DNA of 34,907 nucleotides from Bradyrhizobium sp. (GTDB lineage: Bacteria; Pseudomonadota; Alphaproteobacteria; Rhizobiales; Xanthobacteraceae), in the NCBI GenBank assembly GCA_018971675.1, contig JAGXAF010000009.1, positions 1 through 34,907 of the forward strand. Reading direction: 5' to 3'. Made by a program: the position numbers and the translations under genes. The notes beneath the pieces were generated by a model that was given only the letters and a program-made list of their open reading frames with translations, was not told the origin of the DNA and did not search any database. Numbering within the stretch: position 1 is the first letter of the stretch; the number at the start of each line of letters is the position of its first letter. Shown in pieces: positions 1,692 through 30,407 of the stretch.

Positions 1692-3317
1692 TCAATGCGC
1701 AGCGCTGCCGCTGTTCGTCTTCGCCTTGCGTGTGAAGACCAAAGCCAAAGCGGCGATCGCAAGCACGAAGCTGAGTACCGCGAAGGTGTCGCTGAAGCTC
1801 ATCACCAGCGCCTGGTGCTTGACGGTGTTGCCAAGAGCAATGATGGCCTGTTGATGCGCGGCCGCCGGGTCGCTCACGCCATGCGCCAGGAAGTAGTCGG
1901 TCAAATGCGCGATGCGGTCGCGCACTTCCTCACGGCCGGACGTGACCGACTGGCCGATGATATTGGAATGAAACTGTTCGCGCTTGGTGATGACGGTCGC
2001 AAGCACCGCCGTGCCGATCGCACCGCCGAGGTTGCGCAGCATGTTGCTGATACCCGAGGCCGCCGCTGCATCCTGCGGCGCGATCTCGCTGGTTGTCACC
2101 GAGGTCAGCGGGGTCAGCACCATGGCCTGGCCGATCGCGCGGACGATGTTCGGGATCCAGAGCTGGTCGCCGGCGTAATCGGGGGACATTGCCGTGTTCA
2201 TGAAGCAGCTATAGGCGAAGATCATCAGGCCGGTGAAGGCGATGTAGCGGGTGTCGAAGCGTTGCATCAATTTCGGGACCAGCGGAATCAGTATCAGTTG
2301 CGGCAAGCCGGTCCATGCCAGTACCGAGCCGATCTGCTCGGCATTGTACCCCTGTGCCTGGCCGAGATAGGCGGGCAGGATGTAGACCGATCCGAACAGC
2401 GCGAAACCCAGCATCGTTACCGCGATGGTGCCGAAACCGAAATTGCGGTTCTTCAGCAGCCGCAGCCGGATCAGCGGCTTCTCGGCCGTGAGTTCGATCC
2501 AGACGAACAGCGACAGGCTGACCAGCGCGATGACGGCAAGACGCAGGATGAAGGGCGAAGCGAACCAGTCATCCTTGTTGCCTTCCTCGAGCACGGTCTG
2601 CAGCGCGGACAAGCCGATCGCCATGGTGACGATGCCGGCCCAATCGCCTTCCTTCAGGAGCTTGAGCTGCATCGGCTGCCGCTCCAGCGTCAGATAGAGT
2701 GCGCTCACCATCACAACGGTCGGGATCACGTTGACGAAGAAAATGGTCCGCCAGCCGTAATTCTCGGTGAGATAGCCGCCAATGGTCGGTCCGATCGCCG
2801 GCGCGAAGGTCACCGACAGCGCGAAGATTGCAAGCCCGACCGGCTGCTGGGATTTCGGCAGCTTGGTCAGCACCAGCGTAAACGCCATCGGGATCAGCAC
2901 ACCGCCGGCAAAGCCCTGCAGGCCGCGCATCGCGATCATCGAGGGCAGATCGTGGGTAAAGGCGCAAGCAACCGAGAAGGCCGCGAACAGCGCCGCGCTC
3001 GCCAGCATGTAGCGGCGGAACGAGAACACGCGGCTGAGAAAATCGGTCAGCGGAATCACGACGATCTCGCCGATCAGATATGAGGTCGAAATCCAGGAGC
3101 CGTTGTCGACGCCGGTGCCGATTCCGCCTTCGATATTGAGCAGCGAGGCGTTGGTGATCTGGATATTCAGAATTGCCATGAACGAGCCGATCATGGCGGC
3201 CAGAACCGCGATCCAAACGGTGACGCTGGCGCGATTGGGATCGATCACCGCCGGAGCGGGTGGGGCGAACGGAGCGGGAAAGGCTGCGACAGAGGCGGAA
3301 GCACTGAACGGGGACAT
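1692..3317 (-). CDS. DHA2-family MFS multidrug efflux transporter (EmrB/QacA type)
   Basis: 541-aa ORF, about 14 hydrophobic segments. MASLNIQ-like motif (MAILNIQITNASL), GWRTIFFVNVI and a DHA2 layout. Follows an EmrA-like gene. Confidence 0.93.
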   Translation of the reverse strand: MSPFSASASVAAFPAPFAPPAPAVIDPNRASVTVWIAVLAAMIGSFMAILNIQITNASLLNIEGGIGTGVDNGSWISTSYLIGEIVVIPLTDFLSRVFSFRRYMLASAALFAAFSVACAFTHDLPSMIAMRGLQGFAGGVLIPMAFTLVLTKLPKSQQPVGLAIFALSVTFAPAIGPTIGGYLTENYGWRTIFFVNVIPTVVMVSALYLTLERQPMQLKLLKEGDWAGIVTMAIGLSALQTVLEEGNKDDWFASPFILRLAVIALVSLSLFVWIELTAEKPLIRLRLLKNRNFGFGTIAVTMLGFALFGSVYILPAYLGQAQGYNAEQIGSVLAWTGLPQLILIPLVPKLMQRFDTRYIAFTGLMIFAYSCFMNTAMSPDYAGDQLWIPNIVRAIGQAMVLTPLTSVTTSEIAPQDAAAASGISNMLRNLGGAIGTAVLATVITKREQFHSNIIGQSVTSGREEVRDRIAHLTDYFLAHGVSDPAAAHQQAIIALGNTVKHQALVMSFSDTFAVLSFVLAIAALALVFTRKAKTNSGSAAH

Positions 3318-24656: not shown

Positions 24657-24839
24657 GATTGCTCCCGAAGTGTCCATCAAGGGTCTCCGCTAGGAGCGAA
24701 CACAAGCGATTGGACGCTAAAAGGTTCCGCTGGGGGTGCCGTCGGTCAGCGGTATTTGAGTAATGTCATTTAAATGGACGGTCGGCCGAAATATCGGTAA
24801 AACGGAGTTCCCGCATCCAATTGGCCGAGATCAGGTTTG

Positions 24840-26582
24840 ATGGCAGGCGCTCCCGGTGTCCGGCGTTCCGAGCTCGGCGATGCGCTGCGCACGTGCCGCC
24901 ACGCCTTCATTGGCGTCGGCATTATGAGTTGCGCGATCAATGTGCTCTATCTCACCGGCTCGATCTTCATGCTGGAGATCTACGATCGCGTGCTGCCGAG
25001 CCGCAGCGTGCCGACCCTGATCGGCCTCGCGATCCTTGCCGGCGGAATGTACCTCGGCCAGGGCGTTCTTGACCTCGTTCGCGGACGAATTCTCGGGCGT
25101 GTCGGCACCGCCCTCGATGAATCGCTCAACCGCCGGGTATTCGACACCCTGGTGCGCCTGCCGCTGGTCATGGGCGCGCGCAACGAAGGCCTGCAGCCGT
25201 TGCGCGACCTCGACGCGGTGCGCTCTTTTCTCTCGGGCATGGGTCCCGGTGCCTTCTTCGACCTGCCGTGGTTGCCGTTCTACCTGGCGATCTGTTTCGC
25301 CTTCCATTTCGCGATCGGGATAACGGCACTGGTGGGCGCCATCATCCTTGTCGGCCTTACCCTCGTCACGGAATACCTGTCGCGCGCACCGGCGCGCGAG
25401 GCGACGGGGCTTGCGGCGCGCCGCAACGATCTGGCCGCCGCCAGCCGACGCAACGCCGAGGTCCTGGTGGCGATGGGAATGTCCGGACGATTGACCGATC
25501 GCTGGAGCGAGGCCAACGAAAAATATCTGACGGGCAATCAATACGCCAGCGACATCGCCGGCGGTCTCGGTGCGATTTCCAAGGTGCTTCGCATGACGCT
25601 GCAATCGGCGGTGCTTGGTGTCGGCGCCTACCTGGTGATCTATCAGGAGGCGACGGCTGGCATCATCATTGCGGGATCGATCCTGAGCGCGCGGGCATTG
25701 GCCCCCGTCGATCTTGCAATCGCGCACTGGAGAAGCTTCGTCGCCGCCCGGCAAAGCTGGCACCGCCTCAACCGCCTGCTCGAACAATTGCCGCCGCGAA
25801 CCGGGCAGACCCTGCTGCAGGAGCCGTCGAGCCGGCTTTCGGTCGAGACCGTCAGCATCGTGCCGCCGGGCGATCAGAAGATCATCGTGCAGGAAATCAC
25901 CTTCGCACTCGAGGCCGGACATGGGCTCGGCATCATTGGACCGAGCGGATCCGGAAAATCGTCGCTGGCGCGCGTGCTGGTCGGCGTATGGCAACCGTTT
26001 CGCGGCAAGGTCCGGCTGGATGGCGCCGCGCTCGACCAATGGTCGCCTGACGTGCTTGGCCGTCACATCGGATATCTGCCGCAGGATGTCGAATTGTTCG
26101 CCGGCACGGTGGCGCAGAATATCTGCCGTTTCGATCCCGATGCCAGTTCCGACGGCATCATTGCCGCCGCCAAGGAAGCCGGTGTGCACCAGCTCATCAT
26201 CAAGATGCGCGACGGCTACGATACCCAGGTCGGCGAACAGGGGCATGCGTTGTCGGCCGGCCAGGCGCAGCGGGTGGCGCTGGCGCGGGCGTTGTACGGA
26301 AATCCTTTCCTGATCGTGCTCGACGAACCGAATTCCAACCTCGATACCGAAGGCGACGAAGCGTTGACGCGGGCGATCCGTGCCGCGCGGGAGCGCGGCG
26401 CCGTCGTGGTGGTGGTGGCGCACCGGCCGGTCGGGATCGAAGGGGTTGACCAGCTTTTGGTGTTGAGGGACGGTCGCATGCAGGCCTTCGGCCCCAAGGA
26501 GACGGTGCTCGGACAGGTGATCCAGCGGGTAGGGCCGCCCACGCCGATCAAGATCGTCAGCGAAGGCGGGGTCAAGAAATGA
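24840..26582 (+). CDS. Type I secretion system permease/ATPase (PrtD/HlyB-like ABC exporter)
   Basis: About 580 aa. TM domain plus Walker A GPSGSGKSS, signature LSAGQAQRVALARAL, Walker B FLIVLDEPNSNLD. Confidence 0.95.
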   Translation: MAGAPGVRRSELGDALRTCRHAFIGVGIMSCAINVLYLTGSIFMLEIYDRVLPSRSVPTLIGLAILAGGMYLGQGVLDLVRGRILGRVGTALDESLNRRVFDTLVRLPLVMGARNEGLQPLRDLDAVRSFLSGMGPGAFFDLPWLPFYLAICFAFHFAIGITALVGAIILVGLTLVTEYLSRAPAREATGLAARRNDLAAASRRNAEVLVAMGMSGRLTDRWSEANEKYLTGNQYASDIAGGLGAISKVLRMTLQSAVLGVGAYLVIYQEATAGIIIAGSILSARALAPVDLAIAHWRSFVAARQSWHRLNRLLEQLPPRTGQTLLQEPSSRLSVETVSIVPPGDQKIIVQEITFALEAGHGLGIIGPSGSGKSSLARVLVGVWQPFRGKVRLDGAALDQWSPDVLGRHIGYLPQDVELFAGTVAQNICRFDPDASSDGIIAAAKEAGVHQLIIKMRDGYDTQVGEQGHALSAGQAQRVALARALYGNPFLIVLDEPNSNLDTEGDEALTRAIRAARERGAVVVVVAHRPVGIEGVDQLLVLRDGRMQAFGPKETVLGQVIQRVGPPTPIKIVSEGGVKK

Positions 26583-27919
26583 CCGTTCAGGGAATGATCG
26601 GCCAAAAGACGGGCCTTGCCGAGGCAAAGGGCGCGCAAGCATCGATCCGGCTGCACCTGATCGTCGGCCTGTCGGTGGTCGTGCTCCTGGTTGGCGGGCT
26701 CGGCGGCTGGGCCTCGACCGCCGAAATCTCCGGCGCGCTGATCGCGCCGGGATCGATCGTGGTCGAATCCAGCGTCAAGAAGGTCCAGCATCCGACCGGC
26801 GGCGTCGTTGGCGAAGTGCGCGCGCATGACGGCGACCACGTCAAGGCCGGCGATATCGTGGTGCGGCTCGATGACACTGTCACCAAGGCGAACCTCGCGA
26901 TCGTCACCAAGAATCTCAATGGTCTCCTGGCGCGCGGCGCGCGGCTGGAGGCCGAGCAGCAGGGCCTCGACAAGATCGTGTTTCCGCAAGCCTTGCTCGA
27001 TCAAGCTGATGACCCCGATGTCAAGGACGTGATGGCAAGCGAGACCAAATTGTTCGAAGTCCGCACCACCGGGCGGAGCGGACAGAAGGCGCAATTGCGC
27101 GAGCGGATCACGCAGTTGAAGGAAGAGATCGCGGGCCTCTCGGCGCAGGCCCAGGCCAAGGACCAGGAAATAGCGTTGGTCGACAAGGAATTGGTCGGCG
27201 TTCGCCAGCTCTACGACCAGCATCTCGTGCAGTTGGCGCGGCTGACCACGCTGGAGCGCGACGCGGCGCGGCTCGCCGGCGAAAAGGCGCAATACGTTGC
27301 CTCCACGGCGCAGGCCAAGGGCAAGATCACCGAGACTGAATTGCAGATCATCCAGATCGACAAGGACATGGTCAGCGACGTCTCCAAGGATCTGCGCGAG
27401 ACCAATGACAAGATCGGCGAATATATCGAGCGCAAGGTCACCGCAGAGGACCAGTTGCGCCGGGTCGATATCCGCGCGCCGCAGGACGGGATCGTCGAGC
27501 AATCGACCGTGCATACCGTAGGCGGGGTGATCCAGGCGGGCGATGCGATCATGATGATCGTGCCGCAAGCCGACGACCTTCAGGTCGAGGCCAAGGTCAA
27601 CCCGCAGGACATCGACAAACTGCAGATCGGCGAAAAGACGCTGCTGCGGCTATCGGCTTTCAACCAGCGCACGACGCCGGAATTGACCGGCGAGGTGATC
27701 CGCGTATCGCCCGACGTCACCACGGACCAGCGCACCGGACAATCCCACTACACCATCCGCGTCTCGCTGCCGCCGGACGAAGTTGCAAAGCTCGGCGAAG
27801 TCAAGCTGATTCCGGGCATGCCGGTGGAAGCCTTCGTCCAGACCGGCGATCGCACCCTGATGTCCTATCTGGTCAAGCCGCTGAAGGACCAGTTGATGCG
27901 TGCCTTCCGCGAGCGCTGA
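26579..27919 (+). CDS. HlyD family type I secretion periplasmic adaptor
   Basis: 446-aa ORF overlapping the ABC gene by ATGA. GALIAPGSIVVESSVKKVQHPTGGVVGEVRAHDGDHVKAGDIVVRLDDT, coiled coil, VDIRAPQDGIVEQSTVHTVGGVIQAGDAIMMIVP. Confidence 0.95.
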   Translation: MTVQGMIGQKTGLAEAKGAQASIRLHLIVGLSVVVLLVGGLGGWASTAEISGALIAPGSIVVESSVKKVQHPTGGVVGEVRAHDGDHVKAGDIVVRLDDTVTKANLAIVTKNLNGLLARGARLEAEQQGLDKIVFPQALLDQADDPDVKDVMASETKLFEVRTTGRSGQKAQLRERITQLKEEIAGLSAQAQAKDQEIALVDKELVGVRQLYDQHLVQLARLTTLERDAARLAGEKAQYVASTAQAKGKITETELQIIQIDKDMVSDVSKDLRETNDKIGEYIERKVTAEDQLRRVDIRAPQDGIVEQSTVHTVGGVIQAGDAIMMIVPQADDLQVEAKVNPQDIDKLQIGEKTLLRLSAFNQRTTPELTGEVIRVSPDVTTDQRTGQSHYTIRVSLPPDEVAKLGEVKLIPGMPVEAFVQTGDRTLMSYLVKPLKDQLMRAFRER

Positions 27920-28242: not shown

Positions 28243-28273
28243 TTGACAGCCCGACTAGCAGGGTTTTTATTTA
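28243..28273 (+). promoter_or_regulatory. Sigma70-like promoter of the chromate module
   Basis: TTGACA at 28243-28248, 17-bp spacer, TTTATT at 28266-28271 (or TATTTA at 28268-28273); expected start about 28278-28280. Confidence 0.45.
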
Positions 28274-28278
28274 AGCCA

Positions 28279-28346
28279 CGGGGATGTGCGATCTCCCCGC
28301 GAGGCGACATGCCCAAGAATCGCGTCCTGATACCAAGGGGCGCCGC
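28279..28346 (+). ncRNA. Candidate chrB-type cis-regulatory RNA in the 5' UTR of chrB
   Basis: P1 CGGGGA (28279-28284)/TCCCCG (28294-28299); small hairpin GGC-GACAT-GCC (28303-28313); pseudoknot between P1-loop GCGAU (28288-28292) and AUCGC (28319-28323); then AAGGGG SD and ATG at 28347. Confidence 0.5.
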
Positions 28347-29165
28347 ATGTCTTCATACACCTCAATTTCCTCCGACAAGCTTTCCAGACTGATCGGTACT
28401 TCCAATGCGCCGACGCTCATCGACGTCCGCCTTGATGAGGATTTCGCGGCCGATCCACGCTTGATTCCCGGTGCCGCGCGGCGCTCGCATGTCGACGTCC
28501 AGGACTGGGCTCCTCGCGTCGCGGGTCAGTCGGTGGTCGTCATCTGCAACAACGGCCAGAAAATCAGCGAAGGCACGGCCGCCTGGCTCCGATGCAGCAA
28601 CATCGCCGCCGAGGTTCTCGAAGGCGGTCATCTCGGCTGGAGACAGGCCGGGCTTCCGACTGTTCCCGCGGACAAGATTCCCAGGCGTGACGGGCGGGGT
28701 CGCACGGTTTGGGTGACGCGATCCCGGCCCAAGATCGACCGTATCGCCTGTCCCTGGCTGATCCGGCGCTTCGTCGATCCCGCCGCCGTGTTTCTTTTTG
28801 TGGCGCCTGCCGAGGTCACATCGGTGGCCGAGCGCTTCGATGCCACGCCGTTCGACATCGAGGATGTCTTCTGGAGCCATCGCGGCGAGTTCTGCACCTT
28901 TGACGTCATGGTGCAGGAGTTCGGTATTTCCACGCCGGCGTTGGAGCGGCTCGCGACCATGGTGCGGGCTGCCGATACGGCGCGTCTCGATCTGTCGCCC
29001 GAGGCGCCCGGATTGCTGGCGGCCTCGCTCGGCCTCTCGCGCATGTACGACGACGATCTCGAACAGTTGAATGCCGGCATGCGCCTGTATGACGCGTTCT
29101 ACCGCTGGTGCCGTGACGCGATCAAGGAAACGCACAACTGGCCGACCAACAAGGTGAAGCCGTAA
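28347..29165 (+). CDS. chrB: Rhodanese-ChrB domain chromate resistance protein
   Basis: N-terminal rhodanese (TLIDVRLDEDF..VVVICNNGQKISEGTAAWLR..EGGHLGWRQAGLP) followed by ChrB-type domain (TVWVTRSRPKIDRIACPWLIRRFVDPAAVFLFV..FDVMVQEFGI). Next gene is chrA. Confidence 0.88.
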   Translation: MSSYTSISSDKLSRLIGTSNAPTLIDVRLDEDFAADPRLIPGAARRSHVDVQDWAPRVAGQSVVVICNNGQKISEGTAAWLRCSNIAAEVLEGGHLGWRQAGLPTVPADKIPRRDGRGRTVWVTRSRPKIDRIACPWLIRRFVDPAAVFLFVAPAEVTSVAERFDATPFDIEDVFWSHRGEFCTFDVMVQEFGISTPALERLATMVRAADTARLDLSPEAPGLLAASLGLSRMYDDDLEQLNAGMRLYDAFYRWCRDAIKETHNWPTNKVKP

Positions 29166-29231: not shown

Positions 29232-30407
29232 ATGACGACAACAACGACGACTTTCGCTCGCGGCCGGATGGGCGAAATCGTGCGCTATTTTCTTCGGCTT
29301 GGCTGCCTGGGCTTCGGTGGACCGGTGGCCCTGGTCGGCCAGATGGAGCGCGAACTCGTCGACGGCAAGAAGTGGTTGACGAAAGAGCAGATGCGCGAGG
29401 CTGTTGCGATCTGTCAGTCACTGCCGGGACCGCTGGCGATCCAGGTCGGCATCTACATCTGTTATCTTCGTTGCGGCTTCTGGGGAGCATGGGCCGGCGG
29501 CTGGGCTTTTATCCTGCCGAACTTCATGATCGTTGCCGGCCTGGGTGCACTGTATGTGTATCTGGGTGATCTGCGACCGGTCACCGCCATCTTCTACGGC
29601 GTCAGTCCGGCGGTGATCGCGCTGATACTTCATTCCTGCTACCGGCTCGCCAGGCTCGGCATGGAGGACCGGCTGCAATGGGTGATCGCCGTGGTTTGCC
29701 TTGCCATCACGGTGATCCTTCAGGCCGAAGTCGCGCTCTTGTTCATTGGCGCCGGCGTTGTAGGCATTCTCTGCTACGGCACCTTCCGGGGACGCACACC
29801 GACGGCATTGAGTGTCACCGCGCCGGTTCTGGCGCAGCTTGCGCCGAATACCTCCGGCTCGATCCTCGGCAAGCTATTGCTGTTTTTTCTCAAGGCCGGT
29901 TCGCTTACCTTCGGAAGCGGACTTGTGATCGTGCCCTTTCTCGAACAGGGGCTCGTCCAGCAGTTCGGTTGGCTTGACGAGCGACAGTTCCTGATCGCGG
30001 TCGCGATCGGGATGATCAGCCCGGGGCCCGTGGTGATCACCGCGACGTTTGTCGGCTATCTCGTCGCAGGCTTTTGGGGCTCGCTGGTCTCCACCATCGG
30101 CATCTTCCTGCCATCGTTTCTGCTGGTGCTGATCGTCGCCCCGTTGCTTGCACGCCATCGCGGCAATGCGAACGTGCAGGGTTTCGTCAAGGGCGCCTAC
30201 GCGGCCGCGATCGGAACGATCCTGGGCGCATGCATTCTGCTCGGCCGCATCGCCATCGGTGATTGGCTGACGGCGCTGGTCGGAATTGTCTCACTGGCTA
30301 TCCTGTTTCGCTGGAAGGTGAGCAATCCGCTCCTGATCTGCGCGACGGCGGTGATTGGTCTCATGACCTATCCGATCATCCAGCCGGGTTGGGTGATGGT
30401 TCATTAG
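29232..30407 (+). CDS. chrA: Chromate transporter ChrA (CHR family)
   Basis: FFRLGCLGFGGPVALVGQME..REAVAICQSLPGPLAIQVGIYICYL and second-half repeat FFLKAGSLTFGSGLVIVPFLEQGLV..LIAVAIGMISPGPVVITATFVGYL. Confidence 0.95.
   Translation: MTTTTTTFARGRMGEIVRYFLRLGCLGFGGPVALVGQMERELVDGKKWLTKEQMREAVAICQSLPGPLAIQVGIYICYLRCGFWGAWAGGWAFILPNFMIVAGLGALYVYLGDLRPVTAIFYGVSPAVIALILHSCYRLARLGMEDRLQWVIAVVCLAITVILQAEVALLFIGAGVVGILCYGTFRGRTPTALSVTAPVLAQLAPNTSGSILGKLLLFFLKAGSLTFGSGLVIVPFLEQGLVQQFGWLDERQFLIAVAIGMISPGPVVITATFVGYLVAGFWGSLVSTIGIFLPSFLLVLIVAPLLARHRGNANVQGFVKGAYAAAIGTILGACILLGRIAIGDWLTALVGIVSLAILFRWKVSNPLLICATAVIGLMTYPIIQPGWVMVH

Follow-up and report, generated by a model that had tools for sequence, protein, structure and literature searches.

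The chrB operon of a Bradyrhizobium sp. lies within the stretch of DNA analysed here, 34,907 nucleotides in length and referred to as the window (GenBank contig JAGXAF010000009.1). Its first gene, chrB, encodes a rhodanese domain fused to a ChrB_C domain, and the second, chrA, encodes a chromate efflux transporter and is likely carried on the same transcript. A structured RNA, chrB-a, stands directly on the ATG at 28347 of the rhodanese–ChrB_C gene. A further in-frame chrB ATG at 28284–28286, inside helix P1 of this RNA (open reading frame 28284–29165), may be picked by annotation software but is probably unused. The rhodanese domain (28374–28646) has a CxxG loop (C67, G70) that is nearly invariant in 123 first-gene products, and ChrB may therefore be an active sulfurtransferase. 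Just upstream of the operon, 24837–27919 encodes a pair consisting of a PrtD-type type I secretion ATPase and an HlyD adaptor. The features of the locus are as follows.

28243 to 28248, forward strand: -35-like TTGACA, from the sequence; relatives are T/TG/A-C enriched there (n = 137)
28266 to 28271, forward strand: -10-like TTTATT, from the sequence, with weak consensus; relatives are A/T-rich at -9 to -4
28275 to 28349, forward strand: chrB-a RNA including the start codon, RF03078 match
28279 to 28284, forward strand: P1 5' arm CGGGGA, pairing with 28294–28299 (Rfam consensus pairing)
28288 to 28292, forward strand: pseudoknot 5' strand GCGAU in the P1 loop (compensatory changes)
28294 to 28299, forward strand: P1 3' arm UCCCCG (Rfam consensus pairing)
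28303 to 28305, forward strand: P2 5' arm GGC, pairing with 28311–28313
28311 to 28313, forward strand: P2 3' arm GCC
28315 to 28316, forward strand: AA of the CAAG that follows P2, unpaired by prediction and invariant across the aligned chrB-a and chrB-b sequences
28319 to 28323, forward strand: pseudoknot 3' strand AUCGC (compensatory changes)
28322 to 28323, forward strand: GC common to the pseudoknot and P3, proposed switch point
28322 to 28328, forward strand: P3 5' strand GCGUCCU, pairing with 28337–28343 (minimum free energy fold and compensation in relatives)
28335 to 28340, forward strand: Shine-Dalgarno (SD) AAGGGG, from the sequence
28337 to 28343, forward strand: P3 3' strand GGGGCGC, containing most of the SD
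28347 to 28349, forward strand: start codon ATG of chrB, at the 3' end of the RNA match
28347 to 29165, forward strand: chrB, rhodanese–ChrB_C fusion of 272 amino acids (PF00581 and PF09828), without ChrB_N
29232 to 30407, forward strand: chrA, chromate efflux transporter (PF02417, TIGR00937)

The segment 28275–28349 scores 74 bits against the Rfam covariance model RF03078 (chrB-a), far over the gathering score of 43.9 bits, with an E-value of 7e-11 over the whole window. It is aligned over all 80 model positions, every model pair forms, and it is the sole Rfam match within the window. The preliminary description had proposed a chrB-a- or chrB-b-type RNA at this place; the first assignment stands and the second falls, the score for chrB-b (RF03086) being 24.8 bits against a gathering score of 36.5. 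The RNA is a true member of the already catalogued chrB-a family, whose function is unproven and which reportedly stems from a 2017 paper. No reported ligand for chrB RNAs and no experimental study of them was found in the open literature, and they form an orphan class. The chrB-a RNA is carried by 107 of the 398 genomes of the order and is present at the same place in all 20 named close relatives tested; the genome itself holds this one copy. P1, P3 and the placement at a ChrB_C start codon are those of the family; apart from an SD of the GGGG type, a shorter P3 loop and U·G pairs in that helix, the RNA is a typical chrB-a. Single-sequence folding is uninformative (z = -1.2 for the window, -0.5 to -1.2 overall) and was discarded as evidence for the RNA.

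Promoter-like elements precede the RNA at a conserved place. TTGACA and TTTATT are separated by a 17-nt spacer, and the 137 chrB-a loci have T-rich -35-like columns at -33 to -28 and TA-rich -10-like columns at -9 to -4 before the RNA. A generic promoter scan of the window makes no call, as TTTATT is without the required A at position 2. Because these columns stand at fixed distances in the 137 loci, a predicted transcription start at about 28278–28279 is reasonable, in agreement with the earlier proposal of a start near 28279.

The nested structure in RF03078 consists of P1 and P3 only; the pseudoknot and P2 are absent from it. Leaders were gathered (137 chrB-a, 30 chrB-b, and four divergent) and aligned without the use of the pseudoknot, a script-based covariation analysis of the pseudoknot was run on 165 sequences, and pairs were counted separately in 38 diverse sequences. 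The spacing between the P1-loop strand and the P1 3' arm is fixed, and the partner strand follows CAAG at a nearly fixed spacing; the closing pair of P1 is A-U, U-A, or C-G among relatives. In the diverse set, the pseudoknot is 94.7% paired, with GC in 17, AU in 16, and CG in two sequences at pair 3, and GC in 21 and AU in 15 at pair 4; pair 5 is UA, AU, CG, GU, or UG, and about one sequence in four leaves it unpaired. The exchanges are seen across chrB-a, chrB-b, and relatives below threshold. The covariation score of the pseudoknot with P2 is 0.507 against 0.233 in shuffled alignments (reached in none of 500), and slid pairings give at most 0.144. P2 covaries in the joint chrB-a and chrB-b set (G-C 19, A-U 17) and extends in chrB-b; inside chrB-a alone it is nearly invariant, with no covariation. 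By this comparison, the H-type pseudoknot between the P1 loop and the strand 3' of P2 is real. The pairing of loop GCGAU with AUCGC around a GGC/GCC hairpin had been put forward in the preliminary description, and the compensatory changes in homologous leaders uphold it. The AA at 28315–28316, predicted to be unpaired, and A28302 before P2 may contribute nucleotides to a binding pocket. The CaCoFold survey (Rivas 2020, PMC7657543) describes, on the strength of covarying pairs, a new pseudoknotted helix in 'chrB RNA'. The main text of that survey leaves the chrB family unspecified, and its passage on this RNA is without P3 competition or gene context. Since the pseudoknot had been flagged there, it is not itself new, and is here confirmed and extended.

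The third helix, P3, has the consensus GCGUCC...GGRCGC and lies a few nucleotides 5' of the start codon, with the SD inside it. Among the 30 chrB-a sequences with an altered P3 5' strand, 24 keep six of six pairs, compared with a mean of 12 and a maximum of 17 when partners are swapped. The helix boundary is sharp at the G of the GC dinucleotide, with perfect 5-mers numbering 85 at offset 0, 95 at +1, 25 at -1, and six at -2 (n = 136). The chrB-b model ends at the pseudoknot, without P3; a perfect 5-bp helix is nevertheless present downstream in 16 of 30 chrB-b leaders against a mean of 5.0 and a maximum of 10 with swapped partners, and it peaks exactly at the GC, with diverging sequences (GCUACC/GGUAGC, GCGCA/UGCGC, GCCCA/UGGGC). 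The pseudoknot strand ends with the GC dinucleotide on which P3 begins, and the complete pseudoknot and the complete P3, as predicted folds, are therefore mutually exclusive in chrB-a and chrB-b alike. In nested-model estimates, P3 loses an average of 4.1 kcal/mol when the GC pairs are barred, and 4.3 kcal/mol in the window; the chrB-a P3 retains four pairs once GC is removed. The cell may use this exclusivity as a regulatory switch. The 5' leader thus holds both an SD-controlling helix and a covarying conserved structure, as is expected of a riboswitch. The on/off switch suggested earlier survives in kind with another partner, the conserved anti-SD being the P3 5' strand; pairing of the P1 CCCC with the GGGG of the SD was dropped, as GGGG occurs near the start codon in only six of 132 relatives.

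Both families follow the order P1, pseudoknot, P2, and CAAG, and both have the GC overlap with the downstream P3. The chrB-b pseudoknot is GCAG/CUGC where that of chrB-a is GCGA/UCGC, its P2 is longer and more variable, and its gene set is wider. With the pseudoknot compensated between them, chrB-a and chrB-b have one predicted architecture. A further leader, upstream of position 1193 (+) of locus L141, has a chrB-a-like P1, pseudoknot, and P3 with an extra hairpin between P1 and P2; the Rfam models give no match on it. In Bradyrhizobium sp. LMTR 3 (L200), a chrB-b at 2741–2789 (-) and a chrB-a at 2922–3003 (+) share an intergenic region back to back, preceding an MFS-like gene and chrB, respectively, an arrangement that suggests a common signal. 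The small H-type pseudoknot riboswitches preQ1-I and SAM-II control translation and place a compact pseudoknot beside the SD. In chrB-a, the SD instead lies in a separate hairpin that overlaps the pseudoknot by two nucleotides, and the likeness drawn here is one of probable working principle.

The gene context ties the RNA to chromate genes. Of the 114 RNAs in the order sample, 94 are followed by ChrB_C at a distance of about 360 nt, and most of the others lie immediately before chrA or before disrupted genes. ChrB_C is encoded by 113 of the 123 intact first genes (109 of them with a recognised rhodanese domain) and ChrA by nine. Rhodanese-type ChrB_C loci without chrB-a are mostly preceded at close range by chrB-b or by a weaker match. 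The chrB-b RNA stands before genes for ChrB_C, ChrA, MFS, OCD-like, and Cj0069-family proteins. Several of these contexts were seen individually. In L189 (1260–1303, -), L175, and L088, a chrB-b or chrB-a lies directly before a Cj0069-family (DUF6815) gene; in L189, from B. mercantei, the RNA comes after a gene judged by eye to encode a putative His-rich RcnA-type nickel/cobalt exporter. In L149 (2468–2515, -), of the same genus as the window, chrB-b precedes an open reading frame judged by eye to be beta-propeller-like, together with a ChrB_C gene that stands alone. In L159 and L160, chrB-b precedes ornithine cyclodeaminase/mu-crystallin family genes, a possible clue to the ligand.

None of the five loci checked with ChrB_N-type ChrB genes has the RNA. 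The ChrB of Ochrobactrum tritici is taken here to be of this ChrB_N type. In the O. tritici TnOtChr system, chrBA control is chromate-responsive, the N-terminal half of ChrB binding DNA and acting on the promoter and the C-terminal half sensing chromate (PMC3817168). The ChrB_N-type proteins found here have the ChrB_C domain in common with the ChrB of the window, which has a rhodanese domain and an RNA leader in place of the O. tritici N-terminal DNA-binding half. The pattern fits an exchange in which RNA control is found where ChrB is without a DNA-binding half.

We propose, with slightly better than even confidence, that the chrB-a leader is a translational switch of the chrB-chrA operon, probably an ON switch, responding to a ligand for which a chromate-related toxicant is plausible. 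The nascent leader would first form P1, P2, and the pseudoknot. A ligand, either a small molecule or an ion, binding close to P2 and the conserved A/AA would stabilise the pseudoknot, which would then keep the GC, and P3, deprived of the two G-C pairs at its outer end (worth about 4 kcal/mol), would open so that the ribosome could start and chrB be translated. When the ligand is absent, P3 would take the GC and hide the SD, and translation would be low. Accumulation of the toxicant would thus turn efflux ON. From the genes controlled, the leading candidates for the ligand are chromate, a different oxyanion, or a signal that it gives rise to in the cell. A broader reading is held more tentatively, at a little under even confidence: chrB-a and chrB-b would constitute one riboswitch class, in which the last two nucleotides (GC) of a P1-loop pseudoknot aptamer double as the first two of the SD-hiding hairpin. 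In Alphaproteobacteria, this minimal overlap switch would have taken over the sensing of chromate or oxyanion stress from the N-terminal, DNA-binding half of ChrB, and would also control MFS, ChrA, Cj0069-family, and OCD-like genes.

The direction of the switch is an inferred part of the proposal, and the opposite sign, in which stacking of the pseudoknot on P3 leaves the SD hidden in the ligand-bound form, is considered unlikely. No unpaired nucleotide lies between the pseudoknot strand and P3, the pseudoknot could on steric grounds stack coaxially on a P3 of four pairs, and a shortened P3 so stacked could still cover the SD, making the ligand an OFF signal or neutral. However, if the two helices coexist, a conserved two-nucleotide overlap that is so costly to P3 is hard to explain, and efflux-type genes such as these are usually induced by their own substrate.

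Other readings keep the fold and dispense with a metabolite. The RNA could be a protein site, used in autoregulation by ChrB or bound by another RNA-binding protein, and the tight tie to one protein family (the 94 of 114 above) is typical of autoregulatory leaders. Yet the cognate protein is missing from at least eight genomes, where the RNA is kept directly before chrA and no ChrB_C gene was found anywhere; ChrB is thus rejected as the ligand there and appears dispensable for the role of the RNA in those genomes. The wider gene set of chrB-b, with its MFS, OCD-like, and Cj0069-family members, also speaks against a ChrB site; some other protein may yet bind the RNA, but we regard the protein-site reading as improbable. 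Lower still is the probability we give to a conserved translational attenuator, or an RNA that serves basal control, stability, or thermosensing without sensing a ligand. P3 by itself would reduce translation and no ligand is known, but the invariant unpaired A/AA and the covarying pseudoknot exceed the needs of an SD-masking hairpin, and the RNA tracks genes of one theme. The ligand-responsive ON switch is the reading that we consider most likely.

This work adds to the chrB RNAs a proposed shared-GC switch in both families, their unification by a compensated pseudoknot, and a gene-context test against ChrB autoregulation. The comparison yields a testable fold and pinpoints the two nucleotides where switching should occur. 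The RNA accompanies rhodanese-type ChrB, and the five DNA-binding-type ChrB genes are without it. If chromate sensing is true, the leader would be an RNA that detects a toxic metal oxyanion and could serve in biosensors; if chromate is not sensed, the genes that the RNA accompanies would hint at what else 'chromate' systems handle.
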